Of a DNA stretch of 64,000 nucleotides, positions 1 to 55,651 are shown piece by piece. Source of the DNA: Trichomonas tenax (Eukaryota; Parabasalia; Trichomonadida; Trichomonadidae); contig JALKBU010000004.1 in the NCBI GenBank assembly GCA_023091735.1, positions 1-64,000 on the forward strand, read 5' to 3'. The position numbers and the translations under genes are program-made. Below the pieces are notes generated by a model. The model saw nothing but the letters and a program-made list of their open reading frames with translations, did not search any database and was not told where the DNA came from. Every line of letters begins with the position of its first letter. The first letter of the stretch is position 1.

Positions 1-665
1 GCTGAATTTGAATCAGAAGTTAAAAATGAAATGCTAGATCAAAAATTTATAGATGAATATCCAAACGATATAAATCCACCAGATATTTCTAATGATGAAA
101 ATTATATTAATCAGTTAGAGAAAATTTCTAATGAAAATCTCGAGAAAATTGTTCCACAAAATATCGAAAGAAAATCTAAAGTTTCAAAAATATTCGAAAA
201 TCTTGATAATAATCCATTTGGATATAAATTGGATTTATCACAATTTGAAACAGATGATTTACCATTAGTTGATGAAAAACTTAAAGAATTTTATCATAAA
301 CATATTTCATCACAATCTTTAGATACACATATTTTAATACATTATAAGGTAAATGGATTAGAAAAATCACAGCCAATCGATAACGCATCATTTAAGCATA
401 GATTTGTAAATTTATTAAATGGTAATTTCGTATATAAATTAGAAGAATTACCGGCAAATGCTTCAGATGAAGGTACTGAAATATATTTGGAATTTTGTGA
501 TGAGATTTATTTCACAAAACATGAAAAAATATCTAAACCCGCAAATATGAAAAATATGAATGAAAGTAACTTTTGGCCATATAGGTTATCCGATAAATAT
601 TCATTATTAGAAGATACACTAAAACGCTATCAGATATTTACAATATTAACAAATCCTAATGGTAC

Positions 666-707
666 GCGCGACGATAAATCGTCGCAGCCCAACAATTATG
701 TTGGTCC
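666..707 (+). repeat. In-frame double-hairpin insert, copy 1 (42 bp)
   Basis: Starts GCGCGA and ends TTGGTCC. Hairpin 1 is 668-685, stem GCGACGAT with a 2-nt loop. Hairpin 2 is 689-704, stem CCAACA with loop ATTA. The linker is AG plus C. It is GC-richer than the flanking polymerase sequence. It encodes R-D-x-x-S-S-Q-P-N-x-x-V-G-P in the polymerase frame. Stem sequences differ from copies 2 and 3 but pairing is kept. Confidence 0.8.
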
Positions 708-1274
708 AATTCGTAAAGAATTACGATATAATTGCTTAATATATGCGTTATCTTATGTAATTACTGATGAAAATATCTTAATGGAAATATCTAATAAATT
801 TTTAGATTGTAAATATTGTCCAATAAACGTTTTAGCTAAAATATGTGATGAATATAAAATTTGGTGCCAATTAAAATATTATGATGATAAATCTGGTAAA
901 ATGCGTATTGCTAATGAATCTCGTAATAAACATTTGGGACCTGATAACGGTTATAATTACAAAATAAACCTTTACACATATAAAAATCACTATTTCATAG
1001 ATGAAACATTACCTATAAGTTCTTTCTTCATAAAACATTATGATGAAATTGTTGCCTATGGTAATTCACATAAATGGTCTACAGAGAAAATGTTTATGGC
1101 TAGTAATTTCCGTAAAAATAATTTTGAAATCGATACAACAAAATCACACATTAATAGTATTAATCTAATTAAATTATTGGAAGAAATTGGAGCATTCATA
1201 CCATTATCGCATAGTGATAAAGATGTTCAAATTTCTGGTATATCTTCACAACATTTATTAAAAGAAAACAATAA

Positions 1275-1313
1275 GCGCGAATATGATTCGCAGCCCAATA
1301 TTAATATTGGTCC
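1275..1313 (+). repeat. In-frame double-hairpin insert, copy 2 (39 bp)
   Basis: Starts GCGCGA and ends TTGGTCC. Hairpin 1 is 1277-1291, stem GCGAAT with loop ATG. Hairpin 2 is 1295-1310, the perfect palindrome CCAATATTAATATTGG. It has the same codon phase as copies 1 and 3 and encodes R-E-Y-D-S-Q-P-N-I-N-I-G-P. Confidence 0.8.
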
Positions 1314-2477
1314 AAATAAAATTCCCAATGTAATTGCTGATACAAATTTTAGATTAATGTCCGATAATAATTCAAAGAAATACATACCAAAGGATATTTC
1401 TTATTGGTATGCTGATTTTGAAACATGTTCTAAAGATAATAAGGAAATACCATTTATGATATGTTTAAGTAATATTGATGGTAAAATTTCGATAACATTT
1501 AATGGTTTTGATTGTGATAAACAATTTATGGATTTTATTCCAAACAATAGTATCTTATATTTTCACAACTTAGGATTTGATGAAAGAATTTTAATGAAAT
1601 ATGGTGTGAAAAATAGTACTATGAAAGGTTCCAGAATAATTTTACAACAACATAAATACCAAGGTAAAAATATCAAATTACGTGATAGTTATTCTATCTT
1701 TACACAAAAATTGGCAAACTTTCCAATATGTTTCCCTGAAGCATTTGCTGATATGAATATCCATAAAGAACTTTTCCCATATAAATATTATAATTATAAT
1801 CGTGTAATTTCTAACACTGGAATAATTTCTGATGATAGTTCAGAAGAATTGCCACCATGGAATAATAAACAAAAACAAACATTCATAGAAAATATCGATA
1901 AAATTAATGGCTGTAGATTATCAGATAATACATTTGATATGAACAAATATTCTGAATTTTATTGTACACAAGATGTTAATGTTTTACGTATAGGTTTTAA
2001 CGCATTTCGCCAAGTATGTTTATCCGAATTAATTAATATCGCTATATTTAATATAACAACAGCACCATCATTAGCAAATAAATTTTTAAATCGTGAAGTA
2101 TTTTATCCAAATGGTAATTTATATGAAATATCCGGTAATATTAAAGATTATATAATGGGTGCTATTTATGGCGGTAGATGTAAGACCAGAGATAATTTCA
2201 GATATAAAATCCAAGATAAACTTAACGATTTTGATGCGTGTAGTTTATATCCATCAGCTATGGCTAGATTATTTGAAGTTGAAGGTAAACCACAAATAAT
2301 TCCACAAGAATATATTGATGATAAAATTTATGATAAGAATTCACCACATTATTTGCTTAAACATTGTTTTGAAGAAAATCAAACAATTCCGACAGATAAT
2401 AATTACATTAGTTATTTTGTGGTGGATATCGAAATTTGTTCAGTAAATAAATTCAGACATTTCCCATTAATAGTTAA

Positions 2478-2513
2478 GCGCGACAATTTGTCGCAGCCCA
2501 ATTCCATTGGTCC
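2478..2513 (+). repeat. In-frame double-hairpin insert, copy 3 (36 bp)
   Basis: Starts GCGCGA and ends TTGGTCC. Hairpin 1 is 2480-2494, stem GCGACA with loop ATT. Hairpin 2 is 2498-2510, stem CCAAT with loop TCC. It encodes R-D-N-L-S-Q-P-N-S-I-G-P in frame, between the polymerase A and B motifs. Confidence 0.8.
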
Positions 2514-3584
2514 AAAAGATAAAATGGGATTGAATGGGCACAGTGTGACCATGACCGTAGGGAATCATAATGTGAACGAATGCTGTAATATGCGTGTGGA
2601 TCTAATTTCATTAGAAGATTTGGTCAAATATCAAGAAATATCTTATAAAATAATTGGTGGAATTTATTGGTTAGGTAATAGAACACATCGAATTCGTAAT
2701 GTTATTCGTAAGGTTTATGATTTACGTCGGCAATATAAAAAAGAAAAAAATCCAACACAAGAAGTTTTGAAATTAATTATGAATGCTAGTTACGGTAAAT
2801 CCATTCAGAAATCCATTAAAACAAGAAATGCCTATGTAACAAATGATAAAGCAGATTATTATTTATATTCACATTGGCATCAAGTTGAAGAAACATATAA
2901 AACAGAAAATTCCGCCGTCATTGCTGAGGGAGTGCAACTTTATAAGTTGCCTGATATTACATGGTTTAAATTAAATAAAGTATTAGATACTCAATTTAAT
3001 AATCCTGTATTTGGTGTAAGTGTTTTATCGATGTCAAAACGTATTATGAATGAAGTAATGTGTTTAGCTGAAGATCTTAACATATCAATTTATTATCAAG
3101 ATACCGATTGTATTCATATCCAAGATAATTTAATTAATACATTGGCTGAAGAATTTAAGAACTTATTGATACAGATATGGGTCAATTTCATAACGATTTT
3201 GATGAATTACCTAATTGTTATTGTACTTATCACATTTCTATCGGTAAGAAAATTTATTATGATGAATTAGAAAATTATAATGGTGAACATTCACAACATT
3301 TTAGATGTAAGGGTATTCCCGAAAAAAACTATTGTAGATTATGCCAATAAACATTTCGATGATAATGTTAAGAAATTATATGAATATTTATATGATGGTC
3401 ATGAAATAAACTTTGACCTATTATCTACCAGAACAAGATTTAAGATGAATAAAAACGGTGAAATTGCTCACTGTGAAAAGTTTCAATTTAAGGTTAAGGT
3501 ATTAGTACCGGAGAATATATCTAAATAAATACGCAAAAATAAATTTCGATATTATTTTTATGAAAATATTTTTCAGAACACAAC

Positions 3585-4095
3585 CTTAATAGGTATTCCG
3601 ATTTCTTTCATACGTTTGGAAACTTCTGGGCAATCATACTTTAAATTATATGTGGTTTGATAGTACTATAAGCAAATCCTTCACATACGAATTCATTTTT
3701 CTGATATCCTGTAGATCTCTTATTACACATTATTTCTAATTGATCAAATATTTGATTACTTGATTTAAATTCAACGAAAAGTTTACACAAATGCTCTTCA
3801 TCGGTAAAATCTGTAGAAAGTCCATCTATGTGAAGATTTAAGTTAACTTAACATTAAATGTGAGAAATCCATCAGTTAATTGCGTAATATCAAAATCTGA
3901 ATGTGTTATAGCAATTCTTGTTTCTTGTCCTTCGGTAAATGGTGCTGATTGGTCATGGCAATCAACTGTACGTAATTGAAAACTTCTAGTACCATCATTA
4001 ATTTGTACCAGGGATTTTAGATTTTCAAAATATTGTACAACATTACCCTGTAAATTTTTGTTATTATTTAGCCTTGTATTAAATGCCGAGTTCAT
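3585..4095 (-). pseudogene. Maverick capsid-like gene, 5' fragment
   Basis: The N-terminal reading frame (4095 to 3838) is nearly identical to the start of the larger copy at 53503-54413. That copy lies in the position and orientation typical of the Maverick major capsid gene; this functional name is by position and family, not by a diagnostic motif. A 5-nt insertion near 3840-3845 breaks the frame. Similarity to the other copy then continues to about 3650. Beyond that the sequence switches to an unrelated coding-like stretch (around 3590-3650) that abuts the polymerase 3' end, so most of the gene has been deleted by recombination inside the element. Confidence 0.65.
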
Positions 4096-4157
4096 TTTTA
4101 AATAAAAATAAAAAACATAAATAATGATATTAATTTCTAATTTTATTTATAATTAAA

Positions 4158-4427
4158 ATGGCTTGGGGATTTTGGAAACAGCTTAAAGATGTTGCTAAGA
4201 AAATTGGCCGTGGGATTAAATCTGGGTTTAAATTGGTAACTGATAATGTTGTTAAACCTGTAGCTAGTTCTTTCGGTGCGCAATTCGGTGATAAACTTAA
4301 GGGAACATTACCAAAAGTTGGATTTGAATTTGGTGTGAATAATAATGGCGATAGAAAACCTGTGATTAATACTGATGATATTGTTCGGGATATTGGTTCA
4401 TGGGTTACTTCTAAACTAAAATGTTAA
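4158..4427 (+). CDS. Maverick small basic protein, 89 aa, possible minor capsid/membrane-active protein
   Basis: Starts MAWGFWKQLKDVAKKIGRG, a strongly basic amphipathic N-terminus with tryptophans, followed by GIKSGFKLVTDNVVKPVASSFG and a hydrophilic tail. The second Maverick carries a broken copy (53171-53441, minus). Conserved placement next to the capsid-like gene, on the opposite strand, suggests a virion protein. The amphipathic start recalls membrane-active minor capsid proteins such as adenovirus VI, but this is analogy only. The frame is intact here. The ATG is 14 nt downstream of an A/T-rich block, and the divergent capsid fragment starts 62 bp to the left, so the two share a short intergenic promoter region. 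Confidence 0.6.
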   Translation: MAWGFWKQLKDVAKKIGRGIKSGFKLVTDNVVKPVASSFGAQFGDKLKGTLPKVGFEFGVNNNGDRKPVINTDDIVRDIGSWVTSKLKC

Positions 4428-4511
4428 AATTATACAAAAATAAAGTTTTATTTTTATTAAATGGGATTAATAATTTTGCTATTTATTATAGTTGTATATT
4501 TCAGGAATAAA

Positions 4512-4820
4512 TCAAGCGTGAAACATCAAATCACATTTGTTAGGTTTCAATATGATATTATTTAAGATAGTTATAACTTTATTTTTCTTAGCACGTTTTA
4601 GTTCAGAAATATTTTCATGAGCACATCCGGTAATTTTCAAAAGATTTTTATAAATAGTATATAATTTATATTTAACATTTTCTTCATCATCTGCTTTAGG
4701 ATTTCCACCAATGAAAATTTCATTAAATTGTTCCTGTGTTAAACTAAGAATATCTTGTTCTGCCAACATTTTAGAAAATGTTGGAATGCAATCATTTGAA
4801 TGGTTGCCTGAGTACGTCAT
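4512..4820 (-). CDS. Maverick terminal small ORF, 102 aa, unknown function
   Basis: First gene inside the terminal repeat, transcribed inward. It matches the 85-aa ORF at 52826-53083 over about 80 residues (shared LTQEQFNEIFIGGNP and KLYTIYKNLLKITGCAHEN), with only scattered substitutions. That conservation of protein in two decayed elements supports it as real. It is soluble, lysine-rich at the C-terminus, with no signal or membrane segment. This copy has about 17 extra N-terminal residues. Function not recognised. Confidence 0.65.
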   Translation of the reverse strand: MTYSGNHSNDCIPTFSKMLAEQDILSLTQEQFNEIFIGGNPKADDEENVKYKLYTIYKNLLKITGCAHENISELKRAKKNKVITILNNIILKPNKCDLMFHA

Positions 4821-5116
4821 TATTTATTAGAGAAAAAATATATAAATCTTTTCATAACATATAAACAATATTTTTTATTTTAATAATTTATAGGAAACCA
4901 TTAATAAACCCCTACCATAAGAATTTACATTATTAATTAAACAATATATTTTAATAACAAATTATCAGAATTTATTAGGATTTCGATATAAATTATAGGA
5001 AAATTGTTTATTTTATATATTAGGGAAATTATGATTATGGATATTCTCAGAGTGGGGATTTTTTGGGTTAGCCAACTTTTTGGATTACCCCGAAAAATCA
5101 CAATTTGTATACTACT
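4821..5116. repeat. Maverick terminal inverted repeat and leader, copy 1
   Basis: Read from 5116 leftward it begins AGTAGTATACAAATTGTGAT and aligns with 52524 onward for about 300 bp, up to the start of the first ORF. The outer ~80 bp is best conserved, including TTGGCTAACCCAAAAAA. Similarity then continues with small indels. Confidence 0.75.
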
Positions 5117-5737
5117 ATTTGTCAATAAATCTTTAAAAAGTGCATTTTTTCTCCAAAATTATTTTATTACCATATGATTTTAATAAGATAAAGCATTGTT
5201 ATTTCAGACATTAAACCTATCTATTGAGTTCAATCAAAATATTTCAAGCTAAAATGAATTTTCATTAAATTTGTGGAACCAATTATTGTCGAGTTGTGGA
5301 CAGCCATTAGTTTTAATTTTATGATTATTTGCAATCATGTTTGGGTTAGCAAATAAAATTTGAAAATAAGTTAAAATAATATAGAAATTAATCATCGGTA
5401 ACATTATAGACATTGATTCCACAAAGTTGCATAAACATCCGCAACTCTAAATATGTTTAGTTAGAAATATTTAAAATTTTGAATGAAAAAATTGTCGTTG
5501 ATTTTCATTTTTGATAAGAAATTATTGAACTAAACAATATTTAGTAATGATTCATTACTATTTGAGCCAATAAAAACGAAAATTTTCATTTCCTAATTTA
5601 AATTCTGGTTATTTTCCACTTTCAACATATAAAATATGCACTATACAATTAGGTGCTTCCAAAAACATAAAAAAGTTAAACTTCACTAGTGAAGTAGTTT
5701 ACAATGTCAAAAGGAAGTTGTTCATTTTTTAAAAAAA
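5117..5737. other. Intergenic: Maverick flank to FANCD2-like gene promoter
   Basis: AT-rich non-coding sequence. A perfect 16-bp palindrome ACTTCACTAGTGAAGT lies at 5680-5695. A TCATTTTTT initiator-like motif at 5722 lies 14-16 nt before the ATG at 5738. No other gene is seen. Confidence 0.6.
5722..5730 (+). promoter_or_regulatory. Inr-like motif upstream of FANCD2-like gene
   Basis: TCATTTTTT matches the trichomonad initiator TCA(+1)YWW and would give a 14-nt 5' leader. Known from T. vaginalis promoters; use here is inferred. Confidence 0.5.
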
Positions 5738-8700
5738 ATGTCACGAAATTCAAGCTTTGCAAACAGTTCTCCGTTTCGAAGTCGGCCTTCCTCCATCCCA
5801 GACATCACGTGGATGAGAGAGATAGGGGTTAGCTTCGACGAAAACGATGTTCCACACATGGAATTAAAACCGGCGGAAATTTTCGAGAAACTCAATGAAA
5901 TGGTGAAAAAAGACAACAACGATACACTAAACAACAAAATTTTAAGCATAAAGCATATGTTTGTTAATACAAAGAAGTGTTCTGGATGGCTCACGAAAGA
6001 GAATTGGCATTCAATGTCACTTTATAGTATTCTTTGTCAAACAGATAACATCAAGAATGCGATGTTTTTTATGACTAAAGATCTTTTTGCAATGACAGAA
6101 TTCGAAACAGATACTTCACTGGTGAGAGAAATAACAACAAATGTCATTAACGATTTAAGTTTCCTTGATGAAATTAATAGTGACAAATTCTTTATGGATG
6201 AGATTTTTGGAGCAATCAAACAGTGCCATGAGATGGCCAAAACATTATTACTTCAATCAATCTTTAGTTTATGTACAAACGCAGATAAAGTTGTTGATTT
6301 TTTAATGGAATTCATAACAACATATCCATCAAATACCTGTGAAGTTTTGAGAACTTTGTCTGGAACGAAATTAGATAAGAAGACGAAGAAAAAATGCAGA
6401 CAAAAGATAATTGAAGACTTATTACCTTCTGTAAAATCTGCAGATGTTCCATCTCTTGTACAGTTTATTTTCGAAACAACTGATAATTCAAATGCAGAAG
6501 AAACAGTGACATCAATAAGACAAAATCTTTCATCAGCAATCGAATGCTCTTCTTTGACAAATGATTGTGAAACATTCCTCTTAGAAACAATGAAGAACTC
6601 ATTGAACTTTAAGACAGTTTTATCAAATGAATTTATAAAGCAAATCGAAAAAGCCAAAATATGTACTGAGTTTGACTTTTGGGTCATCATTGTCTTGTTT
6701 AACATGCCAATGAGTAGAATGAAAATTTTCGAGTTATTGCCAAAAATATGTGGAAGTTCTTTAAGCATTTCAACTGTCAAAAAATCATTAGAAAACCACT
6801 CGCAGTCATTGATACAAATCTGCCAATCATTCACAGATATTATTAGTGTTCTTATTGTCAGCACTAAAGCGAATATTAGAAACTTTGGCAATGAAATTGC
6901 AAAAACAATTTTTGAAGAAGTTACTTCATTTTTAGTTTTGCAAGATGTTGTTGCATCAATTATCACTCCAATTGGTTCATCAAATACAGAAACAAGACTC
7001 AATATTGCAAATTTGATTTACGATCTCTCAACAAGTTTTCCAAATAAAATGAATGTTTTTGTTCCATTCATCGAAAATTCATTGTTCTACACAAGTGATA
7101 TTGAAGTTGAAGTTTTCACAATTTTCATCAAATCAATTATAAAGCTTGAATATCAAACAAAAGAAGATGCCGAGAAGTCAACGCAATTCATCATTTTAAT
7201 ACAGAAACTTGTATCTTCGAATCGTGATAAAAATCGAGAAATTGGTTCAGTTGCTCATGCATTTGTTATTGAAAGATTCTCAGAGATAGGATCAGACGCA
7301 TATAAATCAATGTATGACTCATTAATCTACAGCATTGGATCTGATCCATTGGCATTAGGAATATTTTTCGACACGATATCAAAGAATCAAATATCTGATG
7401 AACTTTGTTCATTTTTATATGAGAAACTTCAGCCAATCATTCATTCACTTTTGATCAAAGATGATAAAGATAACACTTTTGTGTCATTCCAAAATAATGA
7501 TAAAAGCAAAACGAGGTATGAAGTTTATTCTCAGAGAAAAACACATTCATCGGAATTCTCATTATTTGCGAAGTCTTCTTCGTGTCTTAAATTATATTTA
7601 GAATGTTCAAAGAAATTCAATAAGCTTAATGATTCTAACCTTCACACTTACGAATTGCTTGTTGATGAAACTAACTTAATGAGTTTATTCATGGCTCATT
7701 CATGGGTTACTGAGTGCTTAAATGCATTTTGTGAAATTGATCAAAAATCATCACTTAGACAGCTCATTTACTTACAATCTATTGAGAAATTAATTTGCAA
7801 CAAATCATCAAACTTAGCAAACTTTCAACATCCAATTCTTGGGCAAATATTTGCCAAGAAAAAGAAAATCAATGAAATCGCATTATCAACAAATATTGAC
7901 AATGTTTTTAGGCCAATAAACTCAACAATTCTTTTATTGACAAATAGCATTGATGCAAAACTCAAAAGTTCAAGCAAAGATGAAACAAAGCTCGTGAAAT
8001 ATGGTTTAATTTCACTCAAACTAATGAAAATTGCTTTCAATTTAATGGAATCCTCTGGAGTAGATTCAATTCCAAATGACATAATTTCGTTCTGCTCTTC
8101 TAATTTCTTCGTTATTGACGAAATCATCCAAAATGATGGAGAAGAGAAAACAGTCGAAATATTTACGAATCTTTGTGATACTTTTTGCAGTTTCCTTTGT
8201 AAATTCTTTTCATCTTGTGCCAAAGATCAAAACTTATTCGATTCGTCATTATTGAGCCTTAAGAGAGGAAACACAGAAGAAAACATTTTCAAATCTTTCA
8301 TTGGAGAAATCAAAGAATCTCAAATTGATTCAAAAATCCGAGTAATGAGATTATTATCAACTATCACCAAATATTCCAATAATGATAACAAAAAGCTTCA
8401 TGAAACAATACATAATGCTTTCAAAACAATGTTGGAAGGAGAAGGATTTAACAAGAAAAGCGCTCAATATGCTTATTCATTATTCATCGATCATTCAACA
8501 TCACCTTTAAAAGATGTTGCAGCTTTCGTGAAGTCGCTATCGAAGAATGATTATTGGAAGAGTGTCACTGAAGAAACAATATCTGGTTTCTGCAGGATAT
8601 CTTTCAAGGAAATTTTCGAGAAACTTGTGGCAACGATCAAAAAATTGGAAGCTTGTGAAAAAGATAATAAAACTGAAGATCATGATGTAAGATTCTGCAT

Positions 8701-42321: not shown

Positions 42322-44769
42322 ATGTTTTTATCTCTTTATTTTGTCTACACTCGGAGTGAATTTAATCCGACCGATCCATATTTTCCGATGCAGTTCCCGC
42401 TGAAGAATCAGGGAAAGTGGCTCGGATACCAAGGCGAGGACATTAGTATTGATTATTGTTGGAATAATGAATATTTTGGTCAAGGATCAGCGGTTGCGGT
42501 TATAGATGACGGATGCAATTACACACATGAAGACTTTAATCGATCTTACGTTGAAGAAAAATCGTTTAATTACAAAACTTGGACAACAGACGCTATAAAT
42601 GACGATGAAACATACACATCTGGAACTACCAATGCAGGAAACATCGCTGCGGATGGAAATGACATCGCTATCATTGGTGTAGCGAAAGATAGCAAAGTTG
42701 GTTGCTTTAATATCAAATCTAATCTTACAACAGCGAATATTATCGATTCAATACAGCGAAATAACGACTTCTACAATATAAAACTTATAGGTTTCACAAA
42801 AGAATGCGGCAAATCTTGCGATTTCGACGAACCAAGCGTAGATATTCAACAAGCGATACAAAATGCCAACGAAAACATGATTTTTGTTAAGCCAGCGGGC
42901 TATGATGCGATTTTAGGCGGTGATACGAACTATGACGTAATATCTCGATCACCAAGAGTCATCGTTGTTAGTGACTCCAACCACAGAGGTGCACGTTCAG
43001 CATGGTCAAACAGAGGCACAAATATTATGTGCACAGCTCCGGTTGGAGGAAGTTCATCATTTGATAGTATTCGAACACCTACATTTCCAAGTTTATCAGT
43101 GACAAACAACACTGGAGTACAGATCAATGATCCCAGAAACAAAGGTGCATCTTTTGTTGCTGGCGCAATTGCAGTTATTTTAGGCAAATATCCACAATTG
43201 ACGTGGCGTGATGTACAGCATTTGATAGCAATCAGCTCAACGAGGATAGATCCGAACCATCCTTCGTGGGTCATCAATGGAGCCAAATTCTCATATTCGC
43301 ATATCTACGGATTTGGAAGAATTAACACATTCTTTATGATGTCCAATGTCGAAAACATCAATAAATTACCAGAGCAAGTCACTGCCACAGTTGAAAATAA
43401 TGATGAAGGAGTAATTCCTGTTTTAAGAGGCGGATCTATGACAAGAAAGGTTAAATTTGATGGCAATGATGTTGTAGGTTCAATGGAATATGTTACACTC
43501 AAAATAGACCTCGATTCAATTGATTTCAGTGTCCTTAGAATTTTAGTTTGGTCCCCTTCAAACACATTTTCGTATATTAAGTCTCCTTCAAGAATTACAG
43601 AGAATAAAGGAAGGAAGACATACGAATTCCTTATAAGAACATTCTATGGTGAGTCAAGCAAAGGAGAATGGACAATCAAATTCATTTCCGACTCTATGAT
43701 ATTCCCGCCACACTTTTACAAGTTGACTCTTTCTGCAACAGGATGCAAAGATCCAAATATCTTCACATCTTATCAGAGAGACGGCTCTGACCCATATGCA
43801 GCATTCAATGCACAATACATTCCAAACATTACAATCACTTCACCATTCGGAAAGCCATTGGAAAGAATTGCATGCGGAATTCCATTCAATGTCAATGTTA
43901 CTTTGCCACAAGAAGTAGCACAGCCAATTTCATTCACACTTGGCGATGCTATGAAGACCAGCAGATGGCCTATTCTTGACGGAGCTGTTCCTGCAGAATC
44001 AGTGAACCAATTGACAATTCCATGTCATTTCAAGAACTTCTCAAGAATGAACTTATCAGTTGAAAACTTTGAAGAAGGAATTTACGGTTCACAATCAATT
44101 GTTATTGAAAACCTGGACAAATTTGTTAATGAAGTTGTTGATCCACAGACCTATGAAGTCATTAGAATTGATGACACAGGAGCTTTGCAATTCTCTCTTC
44201 TTTTAAGAATGTCTCTTAACTATTGGATCGATGGAGCATATGCACAACGCGCAAGATTGCAATTCTATGATATAGATAATGACAAAATCATTCACACGAG
44301 TTACTTAGACTTAATCAACGCGACAAATATTAAAATAGAAAACGTAACAAGATGCTACAGATGTATGATGTCAATTGTTCCAAGCTGGTATTCTAATATG
44401 ACAGATGAATGTCTCAACATTATTCAGCCTGTTTCCATTCTCAAGCCACTCGAAAATGCTCCTGAGCCATGGATTCTTCCTCTTTCGAACGCTTGTCCAA
44501 TTCCAAGGAACATTAAGACACCAACGCCTCCACCAGCAACGCCAAATCCTTCAGCATCACCTTGGCCAGATCCAACTTGTTCACCAACAGCTACAATACC
44601 AGGTGAAGGTGCGAAACAGAACAAAGCTGCAGTTATTGTTGGCTTAACATTCCTCAGCGTGTTTGCTGTTTTCCTTGGTGTTTTCTTATGGATCAATAGA
44701 AGACGTAGAGAATCATTCTCTAAGAACTCAAGTAGAGAAAAAATAACAGATTTCTCATTAATTGAGTAA
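42322..44769 (+). CDS. Kexin/proprotein-convertase-like membrane protein, catalytic residues lost (815 aa)
   Basis: Subtilase S8B layout: short signal-like start, no clear prodomain, subtilisin-like domain (~35-345), P/Homo B domain (~355-475), a long extracellular region, a Pro-rich stalk, a membrane span near 766-790 (VIVGLTFLSVFAVFLGVFLW) and a basic tail. The aspartate site is kept (VIDDGCNYTHEDF). The histidine site HGTxxAG is SGTTNAGNIAA. The oxyanion Asn region reads VKPAGYD. The serine site GTSAxxPxxAG is RNKGASFVAGA, so the nucleophile is gone. The rest of the fold, including YPQLTWRDVQHLIAISS, is well kept, so this is a pseudoprotease rather than a decayed gene. It could bind or chaperone substrates on the surface or in the secretory path. 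Confidence 0.85.
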   Translation: MFLSLYFVYTRSEFNPTDPYFPMQFPLKNQGKWLGYQGEDISIDYCWNNEYFGQGSAVAVIDDGCNYTHEDFNRSYVEEKSFNYKTWTTDAINDDETYTSGTTNAGNIAADGNDIAIIGVAKDSKVGCFNIKSNLTTANIIDSIQRNNDFYNIKLIGFTKECGKSCDFDEPSVDIQQAIQNANENMIFVKPAGYDAILGGDTNYDVISRSPRVIVVSDSNHRGARSAWSNRGTNIMCTAPVGGSSSFDSIRTPTFPSLSVTNNTGVQINDPRNKGASFVAGAIAVILGKYPQLTWRDVQHLIAISSTRIDPNHPSWVINGAKFSYSHIYGFGRINTFFMMSNVENINKLPEQVTATVENNDEGVIPVLRGGSMTRKVKFDGNDVVGSMEYVTLKIDLDSIDFSVLRILVWSPSNTFSYIKSPSRITENKGRKTYEFLIRTFYGESSKGEWTIKFISDSMIFPPHFYKLTLSATGCKDPNIFTSYQRDGSDPYAAFNAQYIPNITITSPFGKPLERIACGIPFNVNVTLPQEVAQPISFTLGDAMKTSRWPILDGAVPAESVNQLTIPCHFKNFSRMNLSVENFEEGIYGSQSIVIENLDKFVNEVVDPQTYEVIRIDDTGALQFSLLLRMSLNYWIDGAYAQRARLQFYDIDNDKIIHTSYLDLINATNIKIENVTRCYRCMMSIVPSWYSNMTDECLNIIQPVSILKPLENAPEPWILPLSNACPIPRNIKTPTPPPATPNPSASPWPDPTCSPTATIPGEGAKQNKAAVIVGLTFLSVFAVFLGVFLWINRRRRESFSKNSSREKITDFSLIE

Positions 44770-51011: not shown

Positions 51012-52316
51012 TCAAGGTTTCTTTTTTGATGACTTGAGTTCTTTTATTTCCTTCTGTAGCATTGATACTATTGACTTGAGGCTAGTTACTTCTTTCGATA
51101 ATTTTTCTACTTTTGTTTCTAATGATTCATGAACTTGTTCGCTTTCGAGTGAATCGTCATCGAGATCACAGAAAATAGGCTCTTCATTAGGAATGCTAAT
51201 CATTGAAATGTGGTCGCTTCCAACATTTTCGAACTTCTTCATTGTGATACTGTTTGTTGTATCCATGCTCGAAGAAATATGTGGAATTGCATCGATTTTA
51301 TCTTCGATTTCGTCCGAGTTTATGTTAACTATACTAGAACCTTCCTGATCTTCAATAAGTTGAACCTGGAAAACTACTGGACAATCGATATTGATTGCAA
51401 GAGGAGATTTCTTGTTTAGTGAAAGTTCTGTCAATGAACATTGAGATGAAATGCGTGATTCAATGTTATTCACGATTTTCATAACTTCTGTCTCTGTCTG
51501 TATGAAAGATTCTGTGTCAATTTCTGATTGTTCGCTTTTAACTGAAGAATTATCATTAATTGCGGAATTACTTGATTTTCTTGTAAAAATAGGTATCTTC
51601 GTTTTCTTTGGTGATGTTGGTGTCTTTGATTGCTTTTCTTGCGATGAAGATTCTTTATTTTGTGGTGATTCGAGATTAGTTGTAATTTTTGGAGGTTTTG
51701 CGTTCGATTCCGGTGATTGTTGTTTCTGTTGTAGTTGCTTCTTTGGTAAATCAGATGGAACTAAAGAAACGCGTCTAGGAGGCGCATTTTCATCTTTTCC
51801 TTCGTTTTCTATTAATTGTGATATACGAGGCTCTTCTTCGAACTGAAAAGAGCTCTTTGGAGACTGACTTGTGCTGTCATTTAGTGTATCACTGAATGAT
51901 TTGCTAAATTCTGTTGTATTTTCTTTAATTTCTTCTAATTTAATCAAATGCTCTGCTAATTGCTGGGCAACTAAGTAATCTTCGCTAGAAATAGCTTGTT
52001 CATGTCTTTCTCTGAGAATTAATTCGATTTTTGGTATAGCTGATGGTTTTATTGCTTCCAATTCGCAACCATCGAGTAAAGAATCTACAACAGCGTTCAA
52101 TTTCACTCTCTCATTGGCTGTTATTGTTACCTTAGGAGATGAAGGATTTGAATTTTCTTGAGATGACTGCGATAACAGTGTTAATTTCTTATCAATATTC
52201 GCCAATGTTTCCGTGTTATTGCTCAGAAAAGCTTTCTTCCTTCTTTTCCGCAATAACAATCGAATTTGTTTAATTTGCTCTGCAGATAAATCGCTGGGAA
52301 CAGAATCATTCGACAT
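51012..52316 (-). CDS. Coiled-coil, low-complexity protein of unknown function (at least 434 aa)
   Basis: Residues 1-150 contain helical repeats with paired patterns (LSAEQIKQIRLLLRKRRKKA; KPSAIPKIELILRERHEQAI), each a short helix motif seen repeatedly in trichomonad coiled-coil proteins. The middle is Ser/Pro/Lys/Gln-rich and disordered. The C-terminus is a coiled coil (LETKVEKLSKEVTSLKSIVS, MLQKEIKELKSSKKKP). Likely scaffold or cytoskeletal; function unknown. The frame continues upstream as coding-like sequence (KRKTPTRPKTQKGIVELAD) to a TTG at 52382, but no ATG is found there, so the start is ATG 52316 or a non-ATG start. A TCATTACC initiator-like motif lies near 52404-52411, which favours an upstream start. 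Confidence 0.65.
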   Translation of the reverse strand: MSNDSVPSDLSAEQIKQIRLLLRKRRKKAFLSNNTETLANIDKKLTLLSQSSQENSNPSSPKVTITANERVKLNAVVDSLLDGCELEAIKPSAIPKIELILRERHEQAISSEDYLVAQQLAEHLIKLEEIKENTTEFSKSFSDTLNDSTSQSPKSSFQFEEEPRISQLIENEGKDENAPPRRVSLVPSDLPKKQLQQKQQSPESNAKPPKITTNLESPQNKESSSQEKQSKTPTSPKKTKIPIFTRKSSNSAINDNSSVKSEQSEIDTESFIQTETEVMKIVNNIESRISSQCSLTELSLNKKSPLAINIDCPVVFQVQLIEDQEGSSIVNINSDEIEDKIDAIPHISSSMDTTNSITMKKFENVGSDHISMISIPNEEPIFCDLDDDSLESEQVHESLETKVEKLSKEVTSLKSIVSMLQKEIKELKSSKKKP

Positions 52317-52523
52317 TATGTTGTCTGCGAGTTCAACGATTCCCTTCTGAGTTTTCGGCCTTGTTGGTGTTTTGCGCTTCAAATTCGGGACAATAAAAAA
52401 CGGTAATGAGTATTCTTAACATTGCATTTTTGGATTCAGCATAACATATATTCATTGATTTGATGGCAAATTTGGCTTCAAAGAAAGAGAATTGCCGAAA
52501 TATTTTCATTAATGTTACATATC

Positions 52524-52825
52524 AGTAGTATACAGATTGTGATTTTTTGAGGTAATACAAAAATTTGGCTAACCCAAAAAAATCAGCAATCTAAAAGTAT
52601 CCATAATTATAATTTCCCCAAAATTCATATTATAACAATTTTCCTATCATTTATATCGAAATTCTAATAAATTATCTAAATTTGTTATTAAAATGTATTG
52701 TTTAATTAATAATCTAAATTCTTATTGTTATGATTTATTAATGGTTTCCTATAAATTGTAAAAATAAAAAATAATTGTTATATGTTATGAAAAAATTAAT
52801 ATATTTTTTCTTCTAATAAATAATC
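52524..52825. repeat. Maverick terminal repeat and leader, copy 2
   Basis: Inverted counterpart of 4821-5116; the outermost ~80 bp, including TTGGCTAACCCAAAAAAAT, is best conserved. Confidence 0.75.
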
Positions 52826-53083
52826 ATGACAACAACTCAAAATCTTCTTAACTTATCACAAGAACAATTTAATGAAATTTTCATTGGTGGAAATCCTAAC
52901 GTAAATGATGAAGAAAATGTCAAATATAAATTATATACTATTTATAAAAATCTTTTGAAAATTACCGGATGTGCTCATGAAAATATTTCTGGTCTAAAAC
53001 GTGCTAAGAAAAATAAAGTTATAACTATCTTAAATAATATCATATTGAAACCTAACAAATGTGATTTGGTGTTACACGCTTGA
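52826..53083 (+). CDS. Maverick terminal small ORF, 85 aa
   Basis: Paralogue of the 102-aa ORF at 4512-4820: same LSQEQFNEIFIGGNP, KLYTIYKNLLKITGCAHEN and KPNKCDL end. The frame is intact although the element around it is decayed. Start MTTTQNLLNLSQ lies directly after the leader. Unknown function. Confidence 0.6.
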   Translation: MTTTQNLLNLSQEQFNEIFIGGNPNVNDEENVKYKLYTIYKNLLKITGCAHENISGLKRAKKNKVITILNNIILKPNKCDLVLHA

Positions 53084-53170
53084 TTTATTCCTGAAATATA
53101 CAACTATAATAAATAGCAAAATTATTAATCCCATTTAATAAAAATAAAAATTTGTTTTTGGACCAATATT

Positions 53171-53441
53171 TTAACGTTTTAGTTTAGAAATAACCCATGA
53201 ACCAACATCAGATATAACATCATTTGTATTTATCTCAGATTTTCTCTCACCATTATTATTTACACCAAAATCAATACCAACTTTTAGTAAATTTTCTTTA
53301 ACTTTATTACCGAATTGAGCACCAAATGAACTAGCTACAGGTTTAACAACATTATTTGTCAACCAATTAAACCCAGATTTAATTCCACGACCAATTTTCT
53401 TAGTAACATCTTTTAGCTTTTTTTCAAAATCCCCAAGCCAT
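53171..53441 (-). pseudogene. Maverick small basic protein gene, broken copy
   Basis: Counterpart of 4158-4427. ATG at 53441; the sixth codon (Trp in the intact copy) is TGA and a frameshift follows in the next codons. The remainder (VVKPVASSFGAQFGNKV, then IDFGVNNNGERK) is intact to the stop at 53171. Just after the stop, ATATTGGTCCAA occurs on the coding strand, matching the 3' end of the hairpin inserts. Confidence 0.65.
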
Positions 53442-53502
53442 TTTAATTATAAATAAAATTTTGACATTAATACTATTATTTATGTTTTTTATTTTATTTA
53501 AA

Positions 53503-54413
53503 ATGAATTCAGCATTTAATATAAGGCTAAATAATAACAACAATTTACAGGGTAATGTTGCACAATATTTTGAAAATCTAAAATCCCTGGTACAAATTAA
53601 TGATGGTACTAGAAGTTTTCAATTACATACAGTTGATTGCCATGACCAATCAGCGCCATTTACTGAAGGACAAGAAACAAGAATTGCTATAACACATTCT
53701 GATTTTGATATTACGCAATTAACTGATGGATTTCTCACATTTAATGTTAAGTTAAATCTTCAATTGAATGGTTTAGATCCAAACTTTACAGATGATGAAC
53801 ATTTGTGTAAACTTTTCGTTGGATTTAAATCAAGTAATCAAATATTTGATCAATTAGAAATAATGTGTAATCACAGATCTACAGGATATCAGCAAAATGA
53901 ATGCGTACGTGAAGGATTTGCTTATAGTACTATTAAACCACATAATGAGAAAAAGACTAAGAAATATACACATTCATTATATGAAAACGTTGAAAATCTT
54001 TCCGAATCTATTGCTGGAACATATGTTAATTTAATGGATTTCAAAGAAAATAACGAATATAAGGAAGTTAACTTTGAACTTAATGTTCCTATTGAAAATC
54101 TTTTGTGTTTACAAGCTTTCGATATGTTTGTTAATAAAATTATCGGTGAACTTGAATTGAAATTTTATCCAAGATCTAAGGGATTAGTATGGTGTTCAAT
54201 AAACCCAGAAAAGTTAAGGATTATAAGTTAATAAGAGAAAATGAACAAATTGATGGTATATTTACTAAAAATCCTTCAGAATGTTTTACACATCAATTTA
54301 GTCAGATAAATAATAAAGCAAAAGGTATCGTAAAATTTTCTAAAACAACAACTGGTGCCACAAGGCCACAAGGAGCACTACTTCCCTGTATTGCTATGAC
54401 TTCTGTTGTGTAG
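53503..54413 (+). pseudogene. Maverick major capsid-like gene, 5' part, frameshifted and truncated
   Basis: ATG 53503 opens MNSAFNIRLNN, intact to about 54215. It has a mixture of beta-rich segments (FTEGQETRIAITHSDFDITQ; LTDGFLTFNVKLNLQLNGL) consistent with a jelly-roll capsid protein. A 1-nt deletion near 54210-54218 shifts the frame, and the next frame continues IRENEQIDGIFTKNPSECFT to TAG at 54411-54413. Full-length Maverick capsid proteins are longer, so the 3' end is missing. Identity of the gene is inferred from position, size and beta-rich character. Confidence 0.6.
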
Positions 54414-54420
54414 TTGCTGA

Positions 54421-55651
54421 CCATGATATTTCTGTCACTTTTACAATTTTCCCGCTAAATATTTTTGTTAACATATGTTCTTGCTTCGTATATAATATGT
54501 GTATATATTATGAAAATAAATTGCTGAATTAAAATAGCTCTAAGTCTCTATTTCAATGAAAAAATGCAACAAAAGTATTTATGATTTAAAAATTAAATAA
54601 TCTTTTTTAAAAAAAGGGTGAGATAAAGCTGAATGCGATGATGATAATATGATGGCTTATCACCTGCATATGTATCCGATTAAATATCAATACCCAATCT
54701 GTTCATTTTAGTAATCCTGATTTTATCTCGTTATTATTCACTTGATTTGTCCATTTTCAACGCAAACAAATCAGTATCTACTAAATGTTGGACTTACAGG
54801 ATAAAAATGTGTTGCTTTTTATTCGCAAAATATTTAATCTTAATTTGCAACCCTTACTTTTCATCCACACAGCATGCAAACAACATGAGGAATGATAACC
54901 CGTCAGTTAACATCAAAATAAATCAAGACATTTTTTTGATATAATATTGAATAATATATTTTTCATGCTTTATATATCCACAGCATTTTAGATGGGAAAA
55001 TTTTTCATTTGCCACCAAAATTAGACCTTAAATATTCATACTGGTGGAGAAAAATCGAGATGTTTGAGTAGGCGTAGAAAATTCAGTGACGCCAATAAAA
55101 ATGTGTAAAGAGTATCTTCGCCACCGATTTAAGATTTCACATATTTAGGCCATACATTACAATACTATCATATTCACGATTCCTGACAATTCTAATACAA
55201 TTTTTTTCTCAAAAATAATTTGTAATGTTTTCAATTTTTTATTGAAATATTATTTTTGGTTATAGGTATTCTAGGTTTAAGATAATTTTTGTAAAGTTTG
55301 CAAAACTTGCCACTAAAATTTTCATGAAAATATTAAACTTTACAAAGATATATTAAACTGATGATATAATCTTTTCAAAGAATTTTTGAATTGATGAAAA
55401 TTTTGTTAGCAATTTGATAAGAAAATGGTATGCATCACTTTAAACCTTTATTATTTTCAGAGACTATTCAAATTATTCAGAGAGTTGTTATTATTTTCAG
55501 AGCAAATAAAAAATATTTATTACAAAATTTTGCTCCATATAATGAACCGAATATAATTCTTTGATCAAAATTTTAAAAATTGTCATAACATTCAAAACTT
55601 TTTGCCACATTTATAATTTTTTTCTAAACTTCCAAAAAACTCACATTAAAA
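54421..55651. other. Intergenic
   Basis: AT-rich; no coding frame supported. A TCACATTAAA initiator-like motif at 55641 precedes the next gene. Confidence 0.5.

Follow-up and report, generated by a model that had tools for sequence, protein, structure and literature searches.

Palindromic DNA in coding sequence and mobile pairs of hairpins have each been described, in different systems. Rickettsia palindromic elements (RPEs) are bacterial elements of about 150 bp (PMC10969869), and double-hairpin elements (DHEs) are mitochondrial, those of fission yeast being GC-rich and located in intergenic or rRNA sequence (PMC10085805). A putative AG target duplication is given for GC42, one of the GC clusters of yeast mitochondrial DNA (PMC4478555), and the palindromic coding repeats named PARCELs are characterised as tandem amphipathic repeats of 25 residues (PMC2996958). 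No description of such elements in Mavericks or trichomonads was found among the titles and beginnings of abstracts returned by searches of open-access literature.

The elements reported here likewise consist, as RPEs do, of palindromic DNA inserted in frame in unrelated ORFs (several sites of a polymerase and a second, convergent gene) and read as protein, and like DHEs they are made of two adjacent, potentially mobile hairpins. They were noticed in a stretch of 64,000 nucleotides of Trichomonas tenax DNA (the window), and are members of a real, structure-defined family that has been inserted many times. The entire positive evidence is from one genome assembly.

Results

Three elements in a polymerase reading frame

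The window opens with a Maverick-type DNA polymerase B ORF of 1089 codons (1..3270, + strand), the upstream side of which is open at the contig start. Its match to PF03175 (E 1.9e-30, residues 510-971) provides the family B DNA polymerase that is a trait of Mavericks/Polintons. Past about residue 1055 (window 3150-3270) the ORF diverges in frame from its homologues, so that this copy of the polymerase looks broken close to its C-terminus.

All three elements lie on the + strand. Element 1 (666..707, 42 nt) is composed of hairpin 1 at 666-688, hairpin 2 at 689-704 and the tail TCC at 705-707; element 2 (1275..1313, 39 nt) of the same parts at 1275-1294, 1295-1310 and 1311-1313; and element 3 (2478..2513, 36 nt) at 2478-2497, 2498-2510 and 2511-2513, respectively. 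Each begins on the third position of a codon in the ORF and is open throughout; the in-frame peptides encoded are TRDDKSSQPNNYVGP, KREYDSQPNINIGP and KRDNLSQPNSIGP, respectively. The positions, the lengths of 42, 39 and 36 nt, the common frame and the identical codon phase given in the initial annotation were all reproduced exactly, and the frame GCGCGA..TCGCAGCCCAA..TTGGTCC occurred three times in the window, against no occurrence in 100 shuffles. That the elements sit outside the catalytic motifs was only loosely right: element 3 falls inside the PF03175 match (residues 510-971). On another contig (C916) an element follows immediately after YADFETC, which we take to be the exonuclease motif. 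In an AlphaFold model of the polymerase, built on a five-row alignment, the three inserts lay in coil, which is uninformative at the mean pLDDT of 45.4.

A dispersed family

The genome of the window (53.4 Mb, 1528 contigs) was searched with sequence patterns, each accompanied by its reversed pattern as a control. The full pattern gave 7 matches, CGCAGCCCAA..TTGG 43 rows, GCGCGA..TCGCAGCCC 18 matches, CGCAGCCCA..TGGTCC 45 matches and GCGTG..CGCAGCCC 37 matches, with 0 matches for each reversed pattern, and CGCAGCCC..GGTCC gave 64 rows with 1 for its control. The union of the CGCAGCCCAA..TTGG, GCGCGA..TCGCAGCCC, CGCAGCCCA..TGGTCC and GCGTG..CGCAGCCC searches amounted to 81 core places on 65 contigs, about seven of which were chance by eye (C1075, C56, C540, C829, C731, C1110 and perhaps C1397). 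About seven copies were added by CGCAGCCC..GGTCC, which brings the family to roughly 80 by hand count; this is a lower bound, because mutated cores escape the search patterns. Dozens of further hairpin pairs are present in the same genome; a lack of any other copies, which by the initial annotation would have counted against its proposal, was not observed. The lengths were mostly 36-53 nt within a full range of 30-53 nt.

Three candidate loci (L017, L027 and L049) were rejected as chance, since their two stems were not both paired and they had no link to the similarity network described below. In viral and prokaryotic collections, a loose pattern gave 264 cores among the matches listed; both stems reached at least 5 pairs in 6 of them, no paired GCGYG anchor was seen by eye, and we attribute these to chance. 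Nor was a core match present on two viral contigs whose polymerases are 28-30% identical.

Structure of the elements and paired stem changes

Hairpin 1 has the form GC-GYG-stem / stem-CGC-A-GC with one A bulged, hairpin 2 the form CC-stem / stem-GG, and the tail TCC follows; the letters of stems and loops differ between copies. The two adjacent hairpins reported for each copy were confirmed on the + strand, a fold as good being obtained in 0, 3 and 2 of 200 shuffles for elements 1, 2 and 3, respectively.

Covariation was determined on nine 42-nt copies in a gapless alignment with 15 pairs, where 97% of the cells were paired. Changes on both sides were seen in 6 of the 15 pairs, against 2.8 (sd 1.1) in shuffles, and the covariation score reached 0.356, against 0.156 (sd 0.025). 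The count of further pair types was not above the shuffles (9 against 7.8, reached by 116 of 500). Pairing in the stems was also counted genome-wide by means of the anchors only, with an alignment not fitted to structure and with the chance rows left in. For hairpin 1, with 39 distinct sequences, 97 of the 117 cells at the three inner positions were Watson-Crick, against 43.7 (sd 5.2, largest 67) for shuffled partners; for hairpin 2, with 33 distinct sequences, 79 of 99 were, against 51.9 (sd 4.4, largest 68). The matching changes in the stems, asserted earlier from the three copies, are thus real. In a subfamily with CCCGTCAACGGG or CCCATTAGTGGG as the second hairpin, even the third stem base covaries with its partner; some copies miss one pair, as does that on C444 at site 2. 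Selection on moving copies, copying of one arm from the other, or both may have produced the matching changes.

A possible diverged subfamily, with the core CGCAGTCAAA, the end TTTGCCA and two paired hairpins retained, was observed at L333 (about 135-175, C1213) and L041 (C384). Rfam returned seven matches up to E 10 for window 1-4000, all of them under the gathering scores and none over an element.

Empty sites and separate insertions

Counterparts without an element were accepted when the gap differed from the element length by 1 nt at most and 30 of 40 positions were identical in each flank. Among 46 copies, which include one that is not a true element (the C1143 copy, starting GTACACCG), 29 were matched by at least one cleanly empty site on a different contig, corresponding to about a dozen distinct sites, and 17 (one of them not a true element) had none among the loci compared. 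A looser count of 56 of 70 was too generous, because partial alignments had been accepted, and was replaced by 29 of 46.

Site 1, that of element 1, was cleanly empty on 8 other contigs, and other contigs there carry the element, a neighbouring insertion or nothing. Site 2 showed an exact 39-nt gap (aacaataa^aaataaaa) and was cleanly empty on 11 other contigs. Site 3 had an exact 36-nt gap on C753, the sole clean empty contig, and carried shortened 30-nt forms of the element on C978, C1144, C767 and C679. A second length polymorphism was observed at window 2478-2560, where C1227, C761 and C444 are without 57-63 nt that cover element 3 and the stretch following it. The comparison of polymerases with and without inserts, suggested in the initial annotation, thus disclosed exact empty sites among close genomic copies. 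Nor are the segments common to all Maverick polymerases: four distant homologues are without them at sites 1 and 3, site 2 being poorly aligned, and the insert-like motif was absent from 16 distant polymerase homologues.

On C305, one element is nested within hairpin 2 of another; the outer element stands alone on C178, and the same place is without it on C110 and C1102. C916 and C977 carry elements with different stems at one site, which is empty on C1341, and C444 carries an antisense element in the polymerase at a place that is cleanly empty on 12 contigs. The nested copy, the site occupied by two different elements and the exact empty counterparts at about a dozen sites together require many separate insertion events, undated as these are.

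On C862 (L329, C862:168890-169090), two elements are fused and polymerase sequence is joined to a stretch that has its match in the neighbouring region on C1227, which looks like recombination between elements; on C737, C1475 and C1227 the left flank comes from one site and the right flank from the neighbouring site, which fits the same process. Such cases, together with the stops in 34 of the 48 polymerase matches of the genome and the pair lost in some copies, agree with an account in which the insertions are old and no longer move, filled and empty sites stem from recombination, gene conversion and deletion in decaying Mavericks, and the stem changes come from hairpin-templated correction and not from selection for mobility. 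However, the many insertions required by nesting, by the doubly used site and by the empty sites stand against this account, which we regard as possible, leaning to unlikely.

Insertion junctions

No clear target-site duplication was seen across the filled and empty junctions compared. Often the placement of one C or A left the junction ambiguous. More letters are concerned at site 1 and the exonuclease site, where as many as four positions of the flank (TGGT, GT) equal the end of the element; these junctions are ambiguous, and a short duplication may have occurred there. For some copies outside genes, the insert was one nt longer than the GCG..TCC unit. Among 32 distinct flank pairs, some of them from one site, position -3 was T in 22, position -2 was A in 27, position -1 was C or A in 27 and position +1 was A or T in 31, which gives TA[C/A]^[A/T] as the preferred context; insertions occurred in both orientations.

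Transposons of the IS200/IS605 type insert as single strands at a short target without duplication and have subterminal hairpins that are recognised partly by sequence. A miniature derivative of such a (Y1, HUH) transposon, moved by a transposase in trans, would account for the two hairpins, the left-flank preference, the use of both orientations and the lack of a clear duplication, but the stems vary freely here and the enzymes in question were not found. Y1_Tnp had 0 matches in the genome (control positive in 5 of 14 genomes, though a distant enzyme may have escaped annotation), PF07282 (TnpB-type) likewise had 0 (control positive in 6 of 14), and Helitron_like_N had 0 with an equally silent control, which is uninformative. 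We consider a derivation from IS200/IS605 unlikely.

Reading frame

Inserts in other Maverick genes, which the initial annotation had proposed to look for, were found in a second, convergent gene beside the polymerase; the tested genes beside the polymerase had no trusted Pfam or PHROGs match. Further settings were the antisense strand of the polymerase and stretches without detected protein homology. A count of lengths based on long ORFs is partly circular, because a frame-breaking insert shortens its ORF, and the count was therefore made by homology of the flanks. For 24 of the 46 copies, at about 10 sites, the two 100-nt flanks agreed in the protein that they matched (the polymerase or the convergent neighbour) and in its strand. 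The length was divisible by three in all 24, whereas it was so in 14 of the 22 others (8 not; one of the 22 no true element). The core pattern used misses a degraded copy on C1341 in the neighbouring gene; one base is missing from this copy and its length is no multiple of three, and counting it gives 24 of 25. With their frame-preserving lengths, the genic copies would be read through as short polar linkers.

Phase was recorded in ORFs with 80 codons or more, in 29 rows, several of which share a site and two of which were re-anchored by hand. Nineteen rows were sense at codon position 3 and 8 were antisense at position 1, with C310 at position 2 and C1341 otherwise; the strand of C1465 was ambiguous. 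When stop codons were examined in 30 elements, 27 were open in the rarely used sense phase and 24 in the used one, so stop codons alone are insufficient to explain the uniform phase. It may be due to selection for the polar peptide (RD..SQPN..GP or GPS..GCDD..SR) or to target bias.

Since the hairpins sit inside genes, ribosomes might skip them, as happens with the translationally bypassed inserts in mitochondria of the yeast Magnusiomyces; bypassing would not need divisibility by three, and the 24 of 24 lengths with same-protein flanks make this very improbable. A reading as ordinary protein linkers or repeat modules expanded by slippage, in keeping with polar, flexible-looking peptides and with the coil of the uninformative model (mean pLDDT 45.4), is refuted by exact empty sites and by copies outside genes, is at odds with antisense copies, with lengths not divisible by three among copies without protein homology and with pairing kept over sequence, and has a practically negligible probability.

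Genomic setting

A similarity network was built from 55 heavily overlapping loci (full-pattern, CGCAGCCCAA..TTGG and GCGCGA..TCGCAGCCC searches) and counted by contig. True elements were located on 32 contigs, 10 of which also carry a polymerase locus; the other 22 link to polymerase contigs by at least 120 bp, 18 with a single step and 4 with two steps, and the three chance loci were without a link in this network. Confinement to Mavericks is suggested and not proven by this, because 6 of the 20 chunks of host sequence from the window that served as a control also link to the repeat network. A polymerase match was present on the same contig for 24 of the 81 core places, in all 24 within 10 kb, and elements have also entered a distant second polymerase lineage (C1172). 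Of 11 further loci, 10 match known element or polymerase loci over at least 86 nt and C486 matches over about the element only. Of the further Maverick components (retroviral-type integrase, ATPase and capsid), the integrase was looked for: the genome has 33 integrase-core matches, of which one on C54, above the cut-off, and one on C384, under it, fall within 5 kb of elements.

The contig of the window (158,089 bases) carries protein kinase, TBC/TLD and YIF1 genes, and window 42322-44769 encodes a furin/kexin-like subtilase with a P-domain, an ordinary host gene. Window 4001-7000 and 52001-55000 were observed to have repeats in common with element or polymerase loci, e.g. 503 bp at 95% with C981.

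Discussion

The data are best described by a mobile miniature element that is defined by its shape, inserts as a unit into Maverick-type transposon DNA and is retained within genes almost exclusively at lengths that keep the frame, and we hold this with high confidence. The targets comprise the polymerase, the convergent gene next to it, further stretches and, once, an existing copy of the element. The suggestion of a selfish miniature mobile element tolerated in proteins, made from three copies, is supported by the dispersed copies, the exact empty sites and the inserts in several settings.

Replication of Mavericks is protein-primed and proceeds with strand displacement, so that single strands would be exposed. 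As a tentative proposal, to which we give somewhat less than an even chance, the elements would move in trans through an enzyme recognising the folded single strand, most plausibly during this replication; the lack of a clear duplication is consistent with a single-strand route of insertion. Joint changes in the stems might partly arise when one arm is copied off the other during such synthesis. Taken further, the elements could constitute a purely structural class of eukaryotic elements, parasites of Mavericks that move as folded single strands by an undescribed enzyme, have their stems rewritten from arm to arm, so that the shape would be passed on under free drift of the sequence, and act as a source of in-frame linkers, a possibility that we put forward as rather doubtful.

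To our knowledge, it is not settled for either palindromic inserts in proteins or mobile double hairpins which enzyme moves them, or by what route. A single genome that offers many filled and empty sites among paralogues makes it testable how such minute elements move and how a structure is inherited despite changes of letters. The elements also represent a route by which a replication gene can gain in-frame segments repeatedly.

The resemblance to RPEs and DHEs pointed out in the initial annotation holds for the way in which the elements work, but by size, host and compartment they belong to neither. In contrast to RPEs, they are mostly 36-53 nt long, form two separate hairpins with freely changing stems and reside in Maverick-type DNA of a eukaryote. 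Compared with the published description of DHEs, they differ in lying in protein-coding frames, on contigs that also bear eukaryotic host genes. The GC clusters of yeast mitochondrial DNA (GC42) are likewise short, palindromic and mobile, with merging elements and an unsettled mechanism, whereas no clear duplication accompanies the elements here. PARCELs are also palindromic DNA in coding sequence, but the present inserts are single and polar. Miniature elements derived from IS200/IS605 have the hairpins in common with them and, as far as the partly ambiguous junctions show, may also resemble them in a short preferred target and the absence of a clear target duplication, whereas no matching transposase was found in this genome. 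Unlike a classical MITE, they have ends (GCG and TCC) that are not mutual inverted repeats, and no clear target-site duplication. Palindromic inserts in proteins have been known from a small number of bacteria, and mobile pairs of hairpins from mitochondria; here both features are combined in the virus-like transposon DNA of a eukaryote.
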